Source: Desulfobacteraceae bacterium (lineage in GTDB: Bacteria > Desulfobacterota > Desulfobacteria > Desulfobacterales > UBA5616). From it: 64,000 bases of DNA. Made by a program: the position numbers and the translations under genes. This document shows positions 18,140 through 25,794 of this stretch, piece after piece; the first letter of the stretch is position 1; every line of letters starts with the position of its first letter. The stretch spans positions 1 to 64,000 of the forward strand of contig VMSV01000103.1 in NCBI GenBank assembly GCA_013791935.1, in the 5' to 3' direction. A model generated the notes under the pieces. That model was not told the origin of the DNA. It saw nothing but the letters and a program-made list of their open reading frames with translations, and did no database searches.

Positions 18140-19672
18140 TTACGATGCAATGGATGGCGGGTGCTGCTTTAAGTATTCCAGACGGTTTAAGCCATTGATA
18201 TAAGCCTTTGCGCTGGCTGTGATAATATCCGCGTCTGTCCCTCTTCCCAGGGCAGTGATTCCGTTTTCCCTGAGTCGAACCGTAACCTCGCCCTGGGCAT
18301 CCGTTCCCCCTGTCAGGGCGCTTACTGTAAATCTAAGGAGTTCGGAATCCGTGCCGGTCAGATCTGCAATGGCATTATAGGCCGCATCAATGGGTCCATT
18401 GCCGTATCCTGCGCCCTTGACCGGCCTCTCATTGATGGCTAAAACCACGCTGGCCATGGGCATGACCGTGGTGCCGCTGCTCACATGGAGATATTCCAGT
18501 TTAAACACATCCGTGGTTCTGAGAATTCCTTCCTGAACCAGGGCTTCCAGGTCTTCATCCATCACGTGCTTCTTTTTGTCCGCCAGATCTTTGAATTTCT
18601 TAAAAACATTGTTCAATTCCCCGGGGCTGAGATCGTACCCCATTTCCTTTAAATGGTCATGGAGGGCATGCCTGCCGGAGTGTTTTCCCAGAACCAGCTT
18701 ATTGGCATTCAACCCCACGGTTTCAGGCTTCATGATTTCATAGGTCATGGGATTGACCAGAACGCCGTGCTGATGAATGCCTGCTTCATGGGCAAAGGCG
18801 TTGGCTCCCACAATGGCCTTGTTGGGTTGAACCATGATACCGGTGGTGGTGCTCACCAGGCGGCTGGTGGGGTAAAGCTGCTCTGTGACGATATGGGTGG
18901 AGTAAGGAAAATAATTGGGCCGGGTGTGAATGGCCATGACCACTTCTTCCATGGACGTATTTCCCGCGCGCTCTCCGATGCCGTTGATGGTGACTTCGGC
19001 CTGTCGTGCGCCGGCTTCAATGGCAGCCAGGGTGTTTGCCGTGGCCAGCCCAAGATCATTGTGACAGTGAACGCTGAGAATCGCTTTGTTCATGTTGGGG
19101 GTGTGCTTCATCACATATTTCACCAGCTCCGCAAACTCAAAGGGGATGGAATACCCCACCGTGTCCGGCAGATTGATGGTGTTGGCCCCTGCTGCAATGG
19201 TTGCTTCAAAAACCCTGCAGAGAAAATCACGGTCGCTTCGGGAGCCGTCTTCGGCTGAAAACTCAACATTGGCCGTCAACGTCTTTGCGTATTTCACGGA
19301 CTCCACGGCTGCCGTCAAAACTTGCTCCCGGGTCATTTTCAGTTTTTCTGCCATGTGCAATTCTGAGGTGGCCAGAAAAATATGGATGCGATTGTTGGCG
19401 CTGTGCTTCACCGCATTCCAGGCCAGGTCGATATCGTTTTTGTTCGTACGGCACAAAGCGGCGACCTGAATTTTTTTTAATTTCCCGGCAATTTCAGAAA
19501 CCGCTTCAAAATCCCCTTCGGAAGCTGCCGGAAAACCGGCTTCCAGAACATCCACCCCCAGTTTTTCCATTTGTCCAGCCAGCCTCATTTTTTCCGCAGT
19601 GTTCATGCTGGCACCCGGCGATTGCTCACCATCCCTCAGGGTCGTATCAAATATGATGATCTCTTCACTCAT
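18140..19672 (-). CDS. leuA: 2-Isopropylmalate synthase
   Basis: The 510-residue enzyme joins acetyl-CoA and 2-oxoisovalerate, the first step of leucine synthesis. The N-terminal TIM barrel has FDTTLRDGEQSPGASM (8-23) and the metal-binding SVHCHNDLGLATAN. The C-terminal third is the LeuA regulatory domain (YNAIADLTGTDSELLRFTVSALTGGTDAQ in parts), which normally gives leucine feedback. TGGAGA precedes the ATG. It is the last gene of the ilvD-ilvB-ilvN-cimA-leuA operon, 25 bases after cimA. Confidence 0.96.
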   Translation of the reverse strand: MSEEIIIFDTTLRDGEQSPGASMNTAEKMRLAGQMEKLGVDVLEAGFPAASEGDFEAVSEIAGKLKKIQVAALCRTNKNDIDLAWNAVKHSANNRIHIFLATSELHMAEKLKMTREQVLTAAVESVKYAKTLTANVEFSAEDGSRSDRDFLCRVFEATIAAGANTINLPDTVGYSIPFEFAELVKYVMKHTPNMNKAILSVHCHNDLGLATANTLAAIEAGARQAEVTINGIGERAGNTSMEEVVMAIHTRPNYFPYSTHIVTEQLYPTSRLVSTTTGIMVQPNKAIVGANAFAHEAGIHQHGVLVNPMTYEIMKPETVGLNANKLVLGKHSGRHALHDHLKEMGYDLSPGELNNVFKKFKDLADKKKHVMDEDLEALVQEGILRTTDVFKLEYLHVSSGTTVMPMASVVLAINERPVKGAGYGNGPIDAAYNAIADLTGTDSELLRFTVSALTGGTDAQGEVTVRLRENGITALGRGTDADIITASAKAYINGLNRLEYLKQHPPSIAS

Positions 19673-19697: not shown

Positions 19698-21290
19698 TTA
19701 ACTGTTTGACAGCTTAAAATGAAAACTGTCCGCCAGGGCCTGCCAGCTTGCTTCGATGATATCTTCGGATACGCCCACGGTGGTCCAGATATTGTCCAAA
19801 TCTCGGCTTTCGATAAAAACCCGTACTTTTGAAGAGGTTCCCTTCTGACCGTCCATGACCCTCACCTTGAAATCCACCAGGCCCATATCACTTAAATCCG
19901 GGAAGAAATTGGACAGGGCTTTTCGAAGGGCATTGTCCAGGGCACTTACCGGACCATGGCCTTCCGCAGCAGCCATTTCCTGACGGTTTTCCACTGTGAT
20001 CTTAACGATGGCGTGGGATGTGCAGGGCCGGCTTTTATCCTTTTCAACGGTTACTCTAAAAGAATCCAGTTCAAACCTGGGTTTGAAGTTTTCCGTGAAT
20101 TTTTCCATCATGATTTTAAACGACCCGTCGGCCACGTCAAACTGGTAACCATCTTCTTCCATGCGCTTGATTTCAGTGACGATTTTTCGACTGTTAAAAC
20201 CGTTTGCGGTTAAATCGATTCCAAGCTCTTTGGCCTTGTACTCGATATTGCTCTTTCCGGAAAGGTCGGAAATCAGCACCCGGCGTTTATTTCCCACCAG
20301 TTCCGGGTCAATGTGTTCATAGGCTGCCGGGTTTTTCATAATGGCGCTCACATGAATGCCTCCCTTGTGGGCAAAGGCGCTTTTACCCACAAAGGGCCTT
20401 GAATTCACAGGCATCATATTGGCCGTTTCGGCAACAAAGCGAGAAAGCTTTCTGATTTTCTGCAAATTTTCGCTGCTCATGCACTCCCGTTTCATTTTGA
20501 TCCCCAGGATGGGGATCATGGAAGTGAGATCGGCATTGCCGCATCGTTCACCGTAACCGTTGATGGTTCCCTGGACCATGGTTGCACCGGCGTTGACGGC
20601 GATCATGGCGTTTGCCACAGCCATTCCGCAATCATTGTGGGTGTGAATGCCGATTTTGGATTTCGCCTTGCGAGGCAATCGGGATTGGTGGGTTTTCAGG
20701 GCTTTTCCCACATCCTTGACGATGGTTTCAATGTCAAAGGGTAGGGTCCCTCCGTTGGTATCACAGAGGACCAGAATCTCAGCACCACCATCGGCCGCAG
20801 CCAGAAGGGTTTTCATGGCGAAAAGGCGGTCGGCTTTATACGCATCAAAGAAATGTTCCGCATCATAAAATACTCTGCGTCCTCGCTCTTTTAAAAACTC
20901 CACCGATTCCCGGATCATGGCAAGGTTTTCCTCTTCGGAGTTTTCCATGACATCCAGAACATGAAGGTCCCAGCTTTTCCCTACGATGGTGACCACTTCC
21001 GTATCGCTTTTAATCAGGGCTTTTAAATTGCCATCCTCTTTGGCCCGGATGCCTGGTTTTCGTGTGGAACCGAAGGAAGTCATGATCGCATGATGGAAGG
21101 TTTCCGCTTTGACGAGTTCGAAAAATCGTTTGTCCCGGGGATTGGAGCCCGGCCAGCCCCCTTCGATATAATGAATACCGATATCATCCAGGCGTTTTGC
21201 AATCTTGATTTTTTCTTCCGGTGTAAAATTGATGTTCTCGCCCTGGGTTCCATCTCGAAGGGTAGTGTCGTATAAAACTACGGGTTCCAT
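19698..21290 (-). CDS. cimA: (R)-Citramalate synthase
   Basis: The frame opens further upstream, but the ATG at 21290 has AAGGAGAT five bases ahead and starts at the conserved MEPVVLYDTTLRDGTQGENI, giving 530 residues. The enzyme condenses pyruvate with acetyl-CoA to citramalate, the threonine-independent route to isoleucine. The barrel has IGIHTHNDCGMAVAN, and a C-terminal LeuA-type allosteric domain follows (DALRKAL-like ALDNALRKALSNFFP). It differs from leuA by GTQGENINF instead of GEQSPGASM, which is the usual CimA sign. Confidence 0.93.
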   Translation of the reverse strand: MEPVVLYDTTLRDGTQGENINFTPEEKIKIAKRLDDIGIHYIEGGWPGSNPRDKRFFELVKAETFHHAIMTSFGSTRKPGIRAKEDGNLKALIKSDTEVVTIVGKSWDLHVLDVMENSEEENLAMIRESVEFLKERGRRVFYDAEHFFDAYKADRLFAMKTLLAAADGGAEILVLCDTNGGTLPFDIETIVKDVGKALKTHQSRLPRKAKSKIGIHTHNDCGMAVANAMIAVNAGATMVQGTINGYGERCGNADLTSMIPILGIKMKRECMSSENLQKIRKLSRFVAETANMMPVNSRPFVGKSAFAHKGGIHVSAIMKNPAAYEHIDPELVGNKRRVLISDLSGKSNIEYKAKELGIDLTANGFNSRKIVTEIKRMEEDGYQFDVADGSFKIMMEKFTENFKPRFELDSFRVTVEKDKSRPCTSHAIVKITVENRQEMAAAEGHGPVSALDNALRKALSNFFPDLSDMGLVDFKVRVMDGQKGTSSKVRVFIESRDLDNIWTTVGVSEDIIEASWQALADSFHFKLSNS

Positions 21291-21360: not shown

Positions 21361-21849
21361 TTATTTAGGTTCTCTAAGCAGGGCAACGGTTCCGGTTTTT
21401 ACGATTTCCTTGATGCCGATGGGTTTTAACATGTTTAAAAGGGCATTGAGTTTATCCTCGGTTCCCGTGACTTCTATGGTGTAGTGCTTAAGGCTCACGT
21501 CCACGACCTTGCATCTGAAAATGTCTGTTATGCGCAGAACTTCAGCCCGATGTTCAGGCTTTGCATTTACCTTGATCAGGGCCATTTGCCTCTCCACATA
21601 GCTGTTGCCGGCAAACTCAAAAACCTTGATGACGTTGATCAATTTGTTCAATTGTTTTTTAATCTGTTCTACAACCGTATCGTCCGCCTTGGTGACAATG
21701 GTGATTCTTGAAACACCGGGCTCTGTGGTTTCCGCAACACAAAGGCTGTCGATATTGTAACCACGACCGCTGAATAAACCCGAAATTCTGGACAGAACTC
21801 CGGGTTCATTGTCCACAAGAATTGAAAGCACATGTTTATTGTTTTCCAT
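21361..21849 (-). CDS. ilvN: Acetolactate synthase small regulatory subunit
   Basis: The 162-residue protein begins with an ACT domain (HVLSILVDNEPGVLSRISGLFSGRGYNI) and a second C-terminal half that binds the catalytic subunit, as in IlvN/IlvH. It gives valine feedback on acetolactate synthase. It lies between ilvB and cimA. In many bacteria ilvC would follow here; instead cimA begins 70 bases later. Confidence 0.95.
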   Translation of the reverse strand: MENNKHVLSILVDNEPGVLSRISGLFSGRGYNIDSLCVAETTEPGVSRITIVTKADDTVVEQIKKQLNKLINVIKVFEFAGNSYVERQMALIKVNAKPEHRAEVLRITDIFRCKVVDVSLKHYTIEVTGTEDKLNALLNMLKPIGIKEIVKTGTVALLREPK

Positions 21850-21910: not shown

Positions 21911-23596
21911 TCATACCAGAAGCATTTCCGTGATGGCGGCTCCGGCCGGCACCATGGGATAGACACATTCTTCTTTGTCCACCACAAAATCCATGATCAC
22001 CGTTTTGGGGGAAGCAAGTCCTTCTCTTAAAACCGCTTCAACTTCCTCCGGCTTTGTTGCCCTTAATCCAAGAGCGCTGTAAGCCTCCGCAAGTTTGACA
22101 AAGTCCGGCGCATAATCCATGCAGGTAAAGGCATAACGCTTGTCGTAGAAAAGCTCCTGCCATTGCCTCACCATGCCCAGAAATCCGTTATTCAGAATCA
22201 CAATTTTAACCGGAAGGCTGAATTGCAGGGCTGTGGCCATTTCCTGAATATTCATCTGGATGCTTCCATCACCCGCAATATCCACAACCAGTCTGTCCGG
22301 ACATGCCACCTGGGCGCCTATGGCCGCAGGTAAGCCGAATCCCATAACGCCCAATCCTCCAGAAGTAATGAAGTTGTTGGGTCGATCGAAATGATAATAC
22401 TGGGCCGCCCACATCTGGTTCTGCCCAACTTCAGTGGTGATGATGGCATTGCCTTTTGTGAGCTCGAACAACTTTTCTATTACATATTGAGGCTTGATTT
22501 TATCCGATTGCTTATAGGTAAGGGGCGTCGTGCTCTTCCATTCCTCGATCTGATCCAGCCATGGTTTTCTTTCCTTTATTATTCCGGATAAATTTTCTTT
22601 TTCCAGCAGATTGTTCAATATCGTTACGGCAGCTTTGCAATCCCCCACCACAGGAATGGAAACATGAATATTTTTGTGAATGGATGTGGGGTCGATGTCC
22701 ACATGGACGATTTGCGCCTGGGAAGCAAATTTATCCGTTCTTCCCGTGACCCGGTCATCGAAGCGAACACCAATGGCAATCATCAAGTCGCAATGGGCCG
22801 TCACCATATTCGCCCTGTAAGTGCCATGCATTCCCAGCATGCCAAGCCACAATGGGTCTGAACCCGGAAATGCCCCCAACCCCATGAGGGAGCCCATAAC
22901 CGGAATCCGGGCGCTGCGTGCGAATTTCGTCAGCTCCTCGGCAGCGTTGGACAGAACCACGCCGCCGCCGATGAAAATGGCCGGCCTTTCCGATTTCATC
23001 ACCAGCTCGACCACTTTTTGAAGCTGCTTGGCATTGGGGTTGTAAGTCGGGTTGTAGGAACGCATTTTCGGGGTTTCCGGTTCCTTATACGTCGTGATGG
23101 CCCTGACCACATCCTTGGGTAAATCCACAAGCACCGGACCCGGACGGCCGGATCTTGCGATAAAGAAAGCTTCCTTGATGATTTTCGCCAGGTCATCCAC
23201 GTGTTTCACCAGGTAATTATGCTTGGTGCAGGGTCTGGTAATGCCCACGATATCCACTTCCTGAAAGGCGTCATTGCCGATCAAGGGTGTAGGGACCTGG
23301 CCGGTAAAAATCACGACAGGTATGGAATCACAGTATGCAGAGGCAATCCCCGTCACCGTGTTGGTGGCCCCGGGCCCTGAAGTCACAAGGCAAACCCCCA
23401 CCTTACCGCAGGCCCTGGCATACCCGTCTGCAGCATGGACAGCCGCCTGCTCATGCCGGACCAGAATATGTTTGATGTCCGTCTGGGCCAGTTCATCGTA
23501 GATATCAATGACCGCTCCTCCGGGATATCCGAAAATGGTGTCCACGCCCTCGTCTTTTAACACTTTCATCAGGATTTTTGCGCCGCTCAGTTTCAT
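21911..23596 (-). CDS. ilvB: Acetolactate synthase large subunit
   Basis: The 561-residue ThDP enzyme makes acetolactate (valine, leucine) or acetohydroxybutyrate (isoleucine). It has the N-terminal [15 protein letters not shown] and active glutamate segment ([19 protein letters not shown] in part), the FAD-linked middle domain, and the C-terminal ThDP motif [15 protein letters not shown]...ILNN. AGGGCAT precedes the ATG. It is second in the operon, 46 bases after ilvD. Confidence 0.97.
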
Positions 23597-23642: not shown

Positions 23643-25313
23643 TTATTCGATAATAGCTCCCTGATCCGCAGAGGATACCATCTTGGCGTATCGGGCCATA
23701 TACCCCTTTTTAATCTTCATTTCCGGCTGTACCCATTTATCAAGCCTTTTGCTGATTTCAGCTTCGTCCACTTTCAACGTGATGGTTTTAGCGGGAATAT
23801 CGATTGCGATGATATCCCCTTCATTCACTGCGGCGATGGGGCCTTTTTGCATGGCTTCGGGGGACACATGCCCTATGGCAGCTCCCCGGGTGCCTCCTGA
23901 AAAGCGGCCGTCGGTAATCAATGCAACATGGGCATCCATCTCCATACCGGCGATGGCTGAGGTGGGCGTAAGCATTTCTCTCATGCCGGGTCCGCCCATG
24001 GGTCCTTCGTACCGGATGACGATGACATCACCTTTCCTTATTTTTCCAGTCATAATGGCTTGGGACGCTTTTTCTTCAGAATCAAAAACTCTTGCCGGGC
24101 CTTCATGTTTCATCATTTCTTCCACAACGGCGGATTGTTTCACCACACAACCCTTGGGGGCGAGATTTCCGAAAAGAACCGCAAGTCCTCCCTGCTCATG
24201 GTAGGGTTTGTTCATGGGGCGAATGACTTCCGGGTCCAGGACGCGGCAATTCGCAATATTTTCACCAATGGATTTTCCGGTTACGGTCAGGCAATCCATA
24301 TGGATCAATCCGGCAAGGGAAAGCTCTTTCATGACTGCGGGAATACCCCCTGCCATATTCAAGTCTTCGATGTGATGGGTGCCCCCCGGACTCAATGAAC
24401 ATAAATGAGGCGTTTTTCGGCTGATTTCATTAATTTTATTCAAATCAATAGAAATCCCGGCTTCTTTTGCAATGGCCGGCAGGTGGAGCACAGTGTTGGT
24501 GGAGCACCCCAATGCCATATCCACCGTCAAGGCGTTGGTAAAGGCTTTTTCCGTCATGATCTTTCGAGGGGTGATGTTTTTCTCAAGCAAATCCATGACC
24601 CTCATTCCGGCCTGTTTTGCCAGACGAATCCGGGCAGACATCACCGCCGGTATGGTTCCGTTTCCCGGAAGCCCCATGCCGATCACCTCGGTGAGGCAGT
24701 TCATGGAATTGGCCGTGAACATGCCCGCGCATGATCCGCAAGTGGGGCATGCGGAATCTTCTATTGCGCCAAGCTCTTCCTCCGTCATTTTGCCTGAATG
24801 AACGGCTCCCACTGCTTCAAATACGGAGATCAGGTCGATTTTCATGTTTTTTTGTCTGTCCGGGTGCCTTCCCGCCAGCATGGGGCCCCCGCTGATTACC
24901 ACCGTGGGTAAATCCAACCTTGCTGCCGCCATGAGCATTCCCGGAACGATTTTATCGCAATTGGTTACCATCACCATGGCGTCAAAAGCATGGGCTGTGG
25001 CCATGATTTCAATGGAATCGGCGATGATCTCCCGGCTTCCCAAAGAGTACTTCATGCCCGTATGGTTCATGGCTATACCGTCACAAACACCGATGGTCCC
25101 GAATTCCACAGGGGTTCCCCCGGCCATAAGGATGCCCGTTTTAACCGCTTCAGTAATTTTCCCAAGGTGGATGTGCCCGGGAATAATACTGTTGGCTGAG
25201 TTGGCTATGCCGATGAGGGGACGATTGATTTCCTCATCCGTGTAGCCCATGGATTTAAACAATGCGCGGTGCGGCGCCCTTTCAATCCCTTTTTTGGCGA
25301 TGTCACTTTTCAT
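23643..25313 (-). CDS. ilvD: Dihydroxy-acid dehydratase
   Basis: The 556-residue iron-sulfur enzyme forms the 2-oxo acids of valine and isoleucine. Cysteines for the cluster are seen in [10 protein letters not shown] and [19 protein letters not shown]-type motifs (in parts). The C-terminal [19 protein letters not shown] is also standard. GGGGAG lies before the ATG. It is the first structural gene after the attenuator, so the whole operon is probably under the leader's control. Confidence 0.97.
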
Positions 25314-25365
25314 GGCGGCGGTTCTCCCCGTTGATGGTTGAAATATTAAAATTTGTGATGGTTTT

Positions 25366-25449
25366 AAATAAAAAAACCGTTATCAGTTTTAGGCTGATAA
25401 CGGTCTTTGATTTTAAATCCGGGTTCTTACATTTTGGCCATTATCAACC
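25366..25449 (-). promoter_or_regulatory. ilv operon transcription attenuator (terminator and antiterminator)
   Basis: On the minus strand ACCGTTATCAG pairs exactly with CTGATAACGGT (25394-25404 with 25376-25386), followed by seven T and an AT-rich run: a strong intrinsic terminator 52 bases before ilvD. Upstream, GGTTGATAATGG (25438-25449), which includes the leader stop codon, can pair over 12 bases with CCGTTATCAGCC of the terminator 5' arm, using two G-U pairs. The two structures exclude each other. A ribosome at the leader stop would mask the upstream strand and favour termination; stalling earlier would free it. This is the classical amino-acid attenuation arrangement, here read from sequence only. 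Confidence 0.85.
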
Positions 25450-25533
25450 CTGTTCCTCGATGAAGGCAAGGACGCCTACGACGAGGACTATAATAATAGT
25501 GATAAGGTTTCTAAAAGCCATTGATTTATTCAT
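25444..25533 (-). CDS. ilv leader peptide (29 residues, Ile/Val/Leu-rich)
   Basis: The frame starts at ATG 25533 with MNKSMAFRN and then reads LITIIIVLVVGVLAFI before EEQG and a TGA. Twelve of those 16 residues are Ile, Val or Leu, using several codons for each. The stop codon lies inside the antiterminator strand, and the terminator hairpin starts about 40 bases later, just ahead of ilvD. A promoter-like pair sits about 30 bases upstream. No strong Shine-Dalgarno is visible (only GGAAA at some distance). A small membrane peptide is an alternative reading, but the pairing geometry makes attenuation more likely. Confidence 0.8.
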   Translation of the reverse strand: MNKSMAFRNLITIIIVLVVGVLAFIEEQG

Positions 25534-25564
25534 CAGAAGCAGATTTCCGTAAAATTTGGTGCAA

Positions 25565-25593
25565 TTTTTAACAACCTCGTATATTAAAGTCAA
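25565..25593 (-). promoter_or_regulatory. Candidate promoter of the ilv operon
   Basis: On the minus strand TTGACT (25588-25593) and TAAAAA (25565-25570) are separated by 17 bases. The predicted start near 25558 would leave about 25 bases before the leader ATG. The -35 matches five of six consensus positions, the -10 four of six. Confidence 0.55.
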
Positions 25594-25794
25594 GCTTTTT
25601 ATTTATTCTATTGCAAATTTATGATATGTGATCGGATGTTCAAGATTTGGCTATTTAATAATAAAATCATTGCTTGACTTTTGCGGGATAGGTATTGTAC
25701 CAATTCGATTTATCATAAATTACATATTCAATAAAAACAAATAGTTAGAAGTATTCGTTATGAAATATGATACCCTAAAGAAGGATGGCAGGTT

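Follow-up and report, generated by a model that had tools for sequence, protein, structure and literature searches.

A leader element upstream of ilvD

The window, i.e. the whole stretch of 64,000 nucleotides analysed here, carries on its minus strand five genes that each match their protein model above its cut-off: ilvD (dihydroxy-acid dehydratase, 23643-25313, TIGR00110), ilvB (acetolactate synthase large subunit, 21911-23596, TIGR00118), ilvN/ilvH (acetolactate synthase small subunit, 21361-21849, TIGR00119), cimA (citramalate synthase, 19698-21290, TIGR00977) and leuA (2-isopropylmalate synthase, 18140-19672, TIGR00973). ilvD is the first gene of this operon, which serves the synthesis of isoleucine, valine and leucine. 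The same amino acids dominate a short upstream frame on the same strand, MNKSMAFRNLITIIIVLVVGVLAFIEEQG (25444-25533), which runs over 29 codons from an ATG at 25533 to a TGA stop ending at 25444. Its regulatory codon cluster, from Leu10 to Ile25 (25459-25506), has 12 codons for Ile, Val or Leu out of 16.

The frame is followed by the strands of two competing helices, all on the minus strand. Strand 2 (GGTTGATAATGG, 25438-25449), the antiterminator strand, contains the leader stop codon. It can pair with strand 3 (CCGTTATCAGCC, 25392-25403) over 12 bp including two G-U pairs (13 bp are possible according to a scan), and strand 3 can instead pair with strand 4 (CTGATAACGG, 25377-25386), the 3' arm of an intrinsic terminator spanning 25404-25370, about 57 nt upstream of ilvD. 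This terminator has an 11-bp core, extended to 15 bp by flanking A-U pairs, a 7-nt loop and a run of seven T (25370-25376). Its fold has an energy of -18.9 kcal/mol (z = -8.4); for the entire leader RNA the folding z is -5.7. The initial annotation of this DNA had listed the frame, the codon cluster, the 12-bp antiterminator, the 11-bp terminator and the T run, and we found all of them where it had placed them. It had overlooked strand 1 (about 25504-25517), which lies within the leader frame, was located by duplex computation as a partner of strand 2, weak in this copy, and would complete the classical set. The 1:2 structure includes an inner hairpin (25454-25487) in which 25487-25482 pair with 25459-25454. 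The classical order of the parts, also claimed initially, was borne out: a search of both strands for a short frame rich in Ile, Leu and Val, followed in the correct order by an antiterminator strand and a terminator, gave one such combination in the window, the present one, and none in 20 Markov-randomised windows.

Promoter and leader start

The leader is preceded by a -35 element, TTGACT (25588-25593, minus strand), and, 14 nt 3' of it, by an extended -10 element, TGT-TAAAAA (25565-25573). Since a consensus scan rated the hexamers of the window no better than chance, we used conservation in its place. Of 75 nonredundant relatives (less than 80% identical in DNA), 66 have TTGAC ahead of the leader, where 6.8 were expected, and in 45 it is followed by TG[TCA]TA, 38 with a spacing of 14. 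The promoter-like pair of the initial annotation is present and its TTGAC kept in relatives, although the hexamers by themselves would not have singled it out. The spacing TTGACA-N14-TGTTA is strongly kept, in the window (25588-25573) as in relatives, while the remainder of the -10 hexamer is poor; an extended -10 type is possibly in use across the order.

The start codon of the leader is ATG in 72 of 76 cases. Its Shine-Dalgarno sequence, identified from the outset as the weak point of the element, is indeed poor: the anti-Shine-Dalgarno pairing energy is -3.5 kcal/mol at the leader start of the window, and the means are -3.0 kcal/mol for leaders and -7.2 kcal/mol for ilvD starts (p = 1e-11). 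As this weakness is common to the family, it is not evidence against attenuation. It does imply that efficient translation of the leader is an assumption.

Distribution of the element

For 30 genomes, almost every one representing a different family of the window's order, we compared the sequence preceding ilvD. In 28 of these 30 loci, leader frame, competing helices and terminator are all kept. In the other two (L014 and L015) the element is absent directly before ilvD: one genome (G020, L015) has two copies elsewhere, before ilvB and before cimA, and the other (G034, L014) has a weak match only. A covariance model built on the strand 2/3/4 core matches 135 of the 155 genomes of the order, and 95 of the 101 of good quality. 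These copies almost always directly precede ilvD, ilvB, cimA or leuA. Conservation among related genomes, which the initial annotation had named as a check of its proposal, extends across the order. The exact core pattern was also scanned for in 257 Gb of named genomes; its 83 matches come almost entirely from records with Desulfobacterales, Desulfobacteraceae or Deltaproteobacteria in the title, which supports the initial suggestion of a Desulfobacterota genome.

The first gene downstream, among the loci examined, is ilvD in 83, ilvB in 23 and cimA in one; of six other loci, three end too early to tell which gene comes first. Several genomes have the element before ilvB or cimA and not before ilvD. 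Hence, the switch sits before whichever gene opens the branched-chain operon. The order consists mostly of uncultured anaerobes of the sulfate-reducer type, in which attenuation seems to be the usual way of controlling the synthesis of branched-chain amino acids.

Some matches were set aside. Two core matches (L066, L141) have neither leader nor pathway gene and were considered chance, as were weak model matches in the window's own genome (E > 0.05). A plus-strand model match at 25332-25408 is the hairpin read backwards. One locus (L137, G008:C1165) has a complete leader and terminator, but the 2.5 kb that were read after them contain no branched-chain gene; it is possibly a moved or orphan attenuator. 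The ilvC gene of the window's own genome, on another contig (L242, G000:C22), shows no Ile/Val/Leu leader with terminator in the stretch read upstream.

Covariation of the competing helices

Both stems covary, a point that the initial annotation had proposed to check. Among 86 distinct elements, 90.7% of the cells keep a pair between strands 2 and 3 (the shuffles average 87.2% and reach at most 88.6%), and 35 cells show a double change, against a maximum of 25 in 1000 shuffles; the 2:3 pairing was no part of the search model. Strands 3 and 4 are paired in 98.5% of cells, with 63 double changes against a shuffle maximum of 33; because the sampled genomes are related, the pair counts for either helix are not independent events. 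Shifting either helix along the sequence destroys the pairing. One locus (L022) offers a clear single case in which strands 2, 3 and 4 have changed together.

Strand 1 is written into the codons of the leader. In relatives it reads ATTATCAACC, the reverse complement of strand 2 (GGTTGATAAT). Over 75 leaders the 1:2 helix has an energy of -16.3 kcal/mol against -13.2 kcal/mol for synonymous codons (mean z of -1.2). The window's own 1:2 helix, at -10.8 kcal/mol, is weak and does not exceed what synonymous shuffles give. Another segment of the leader, CTTATTAGCC, was considered as strand 1 and rejected when the duplex computation placed this strand a few codons earlier.

Leader codons match the downstream gene

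The leader peptides vary widely in sequence, yet about 50% of their residues are Ile, Leu or Val, and this in one frame only. Over the 75 nonredundant leaders, the best 12-codon stretch has on average 9.8 such codons in the leader frame, compared with 4.7 and 1.3 in the other two; as the leaders were selected with 7 as the threshold and each finishes at its own stop, the frames can be compared but the absolute values cannot. Only the leader frame is stop-free, and its stop lies in or beside strand 2 in nearly all 75. The regulatory codons are thus kept amid changing sequence, the first pattern that the initial annotation had proposed to look for.

The codons also follow the gene that comes next. 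Citramalate synthase serves isoleucine only. Outside the order but within the phylum, the model matches relatives of the element before a lone cimA, with leaders such as MHTTAQAIISIIIISLTIGGLAVV and MKKDIRAIIIINIIISFCIGGRGAV; four of these leaders, from other families (L184, L185, L172, L183), are made almost only of Ile. Six cimA-first leaders have I:L:V codon counts of 55:9:6 against 467:384:262 for the leaders of the order, and Ile accounts for 79% of the branched-chain codons in the lone-cimA copies. Where a cimA-first operon runs on into leuA, as in two cases, the leader is mixed and Leu-rich, in agreement with the same rule. Two genomes (G069 and G073) have two copies of the element each, with I:L:V codon counts of 5:12:6 for the leuA copies and 15:4:10 for the ilvD copies: the leader of the leuA-like gene (MINFTSRLLVLLLIEEVVLNTSGRRGS) is Leu-rich, that of ilvD (MIKMNIINSLVVLIIIVEVIIVTSWRRGD) is rich in Ile and Val. 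The leuA-like protein is nearest to the 2-isopropylmalate synthase models, at scores below their cut-offs.

This match would be difficult to account for if the codons did not serve as signals. It is the strongest functional evidence for attenuation that sequence comparison offers here. Copies that have moved between ilvD, ilvB, cimA and leuA, with their codons retuned, amount to a natural experiment on the choice of regulatory codons, and the leader may help to annotate cimA versus leuA function.

Proposed mechanism

We conclude that the element is very probably a ribosome-mediated transcription attenuator that senses charged Ile, Val and Leu tRNAs and controls ilvD-ilvB-ilvN-cimA-leuA. The parts, their conservation, the covariation of 2:3 and 3:4, the family-level 1:2 signal and the match between codons and genes are observed; from this comparative evidence we infer ribosome stalling, the switch between helices and a response in vivo. 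Transcription would start near 25558 and a ribosome would begin the 29-codon leader. If any one of the three charged tRNAs were short, the ribosome would stall at the Ile/Val/Leu codons, on or just past strand 1, leaving strand 2 free to pair with strand 3; no terminator would form and the operon would be transcribed. If all three were plentiful, the ribosome would reach the stop codon within strand 2 and cover this strand, strands 3 and 4 would pair, and RNA polymerase would stop at the T run near 25370. Transcription would also stop if the leader were left untranslated, through formation of the 1:2 helix.

Alternative readings

Two accounts dispense with the reading of codons. The short frame might encode a real small membrane protein, with a terminator that ends its own small mRNA and another promoter for the ilv operon. 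The peptide does resemble a single transmembrane helix, and one is found at the same place in nearly every relative. We nevertheless regard this as highly improbable: the peptide is free to change in sequence as long as it stays within the Ile/Leu/Val class, its composition tracks the next gene (Ile alone in front of cimA, a Leu-rich leader in front of leuA), its stop codon shares nucleotides with a strand in covariation with a terminator arm, and its start is poorly equipped for translation. We give equally little credence to a leader RNA acting as a riboswitch or a protein-binding antiterminator, the frame being incidental. The near invariance of strands 2 and 3 over about 100 genera resembles that of a binding site, but it is expected in an attenuator as well, because strand 2 must pair with strands 1 and 3, and strand 3 with strands 2 and 4; conservation of this kind was noted for proteobacterial attenuators (PMC1262725). 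Upstream of strand 2 there is only the frame and no conserved aptamer-like fold, and the codon content of an incidental frame would not track the downstream gene. Nor does the window contain any cis-regulatory Rfam match at the gathering threshold, and relaxed thresholds yielded only two sub-threshold chance matches over 25300-25700. A T-box or another Rfam riboswitch was accordingly rejected.

The remaining alternative keeps attenuation and changes its default state, e.g. through a second initiation, at an AUG in strand 2, that would set basal termination. Conservation extends through GGYTGRTAATGGCNTRA and then ends abruptly, and within and just past strand 2 (block 25449-25433 in the window) relatives keep an AUG-GCN-stop in a second frame, with Shine-Dalgarno-like purines upstream. 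Among 54 leaders that end at the block's TGA or TAA, in the other frame, AUG-NNN-stop (mostly AUG-GCN-stop) is intact in 42, and the frequency of stops in the AUG frame is 78% at codon 3 against 0-19% at the codons around it. The U of this AUG forms a G-U wobble where a C would pair better, and is still U in 74 of 75. Shine-Dalgarno pairing is stronger there than at the leader start (-6.3 versus -3.0 kcal/mol). On the IlvD tree (50 rows) a minimum of 12 changes is needed for the leader frame, and only seven for the presence of the AUG-frame stop. These features would fit a working AUG-Ala-stop signal that holds or releases a ribosome and adds a control of the default state; we consider such a signal unlikely, and the reading in which initiation there sets basal termination somewhat more doubtful still. 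The block can also be explained as a two-frame stop used while the leader frame flips, which is the plainer reading, such a stop being useful because leaders often shift frame. The upstream purines also serve the inner hairpin. Moreover, AUG-GCN-stop has been lost in family f58 and in the window's own family, where the copy of the window, AUG GCC AAA AUG UAA, no longer has the short form. Attenuation by ribosome stalling at the leader codons thus remains our preferred reading.

Other attenuator-like leaders

Further leaders of this kind were met along the way. The window's own genome has, at 1042-1134 of another locus (L240, G000:C88), the leader MTYGQQKQSDSRKFWWWWPLHTSGVPSDRP with four consecutive Trp codons ahead of trpE, a TTGACA upstream and a terminator after it; hence, this organism seems to rely on leader-peptide attenuation for a second operon as well. 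In another genome (L181 / L167, G302:C86) the leader MGYQLIMFTYQSVQDYYFFYYTWRGTGLPMD and a terminator precede a shikimate kinase-like gene. The next open reading frames begin, on reading their sequence, like chorismate synthase, DAHP synthase and 3-dehydroquinate synthase, and one further downstream matches prephenate dehydratase. This is a predicted Tyr/Phe attenuator of an aromatic operon. In a third case (L180 / L170, G310:C264) the leader MGKKRLTFWGWWWNRRGGEVCP and a terminator lie before iorA (indolepyruvate ferredoxin oxidoreductase alpha, above cut-off), which is followed by an iorB-like frame and by frames resembling branched-chain-type ABC transporter genes. It is a putative Trp-reading attenuator on a gene not usually so regulated.

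Comparison with known systems

The known examples of leader-peptide attenuation come mainly from gamma-proteobacteria, besides a few other groups. In E. coli, ilvGMEDA and ilvBN (ivbL) have Ile/Val/Leu-rich leaders of about 30 codons and are under multivalent control by the three amino acids. The present element shares with them the length and codons of the leader, a stop near strand 2, mutually exclusive 2:3 and 3:4 pairings, and an intrinsic terminator; the 1:2 pairing of the E. coli leaders has its counterpart at family level and a weak one in the window. It differs in its phylum, in having no Rfam match, in an operon that starts with ilvD and includes cimA and leuA, in a weak leader Shine-Dalgarno, in an order-wide core (GGYTGRTAATGGCNTRA / CCGTTATCAGCC), and in the existence of several single-gene versions with matching codons.

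Runs of Ile/Val/Leu codons and a terminator also precede branched-chain operons in Actinobacteria, as candidate ilvB leaders (Seliverstov et al. 2005, PMC1262725; Corynebacterium ilvB-II/uORF, PMC10272879). There the codon runs are reported to overlap the terminator, with an unclear mode of regulation (PMC1262725), whereas the present element has all four strands, with covariation of 2:3 and 3:4. A similar-looking ilvB leader of Streptomyces coelicolor reportedly did not respond to changed regulatory codons (PMC1262725), which shows that anatomy alone does not prove mechanism. A conserved RNA before ilvD, sometimes with a terminator, was described as the WRC-18-2 motif; it was reported for Veillonella alone and considered a weak riboswitch candidate with little covariation, not a leader-peptide attenuator (PMC8632094). 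The literature that we searched holds no description of such an element for this phylum, and an earlier mention in Vitreschak et al. 2004 (FEMS Microbiol Lett) is possible. The novelty of the element, which is ready to become a new Rfam family, is in its lineage, its breadth and the retuning of its codons, while the mechanism proposed for it is classical.
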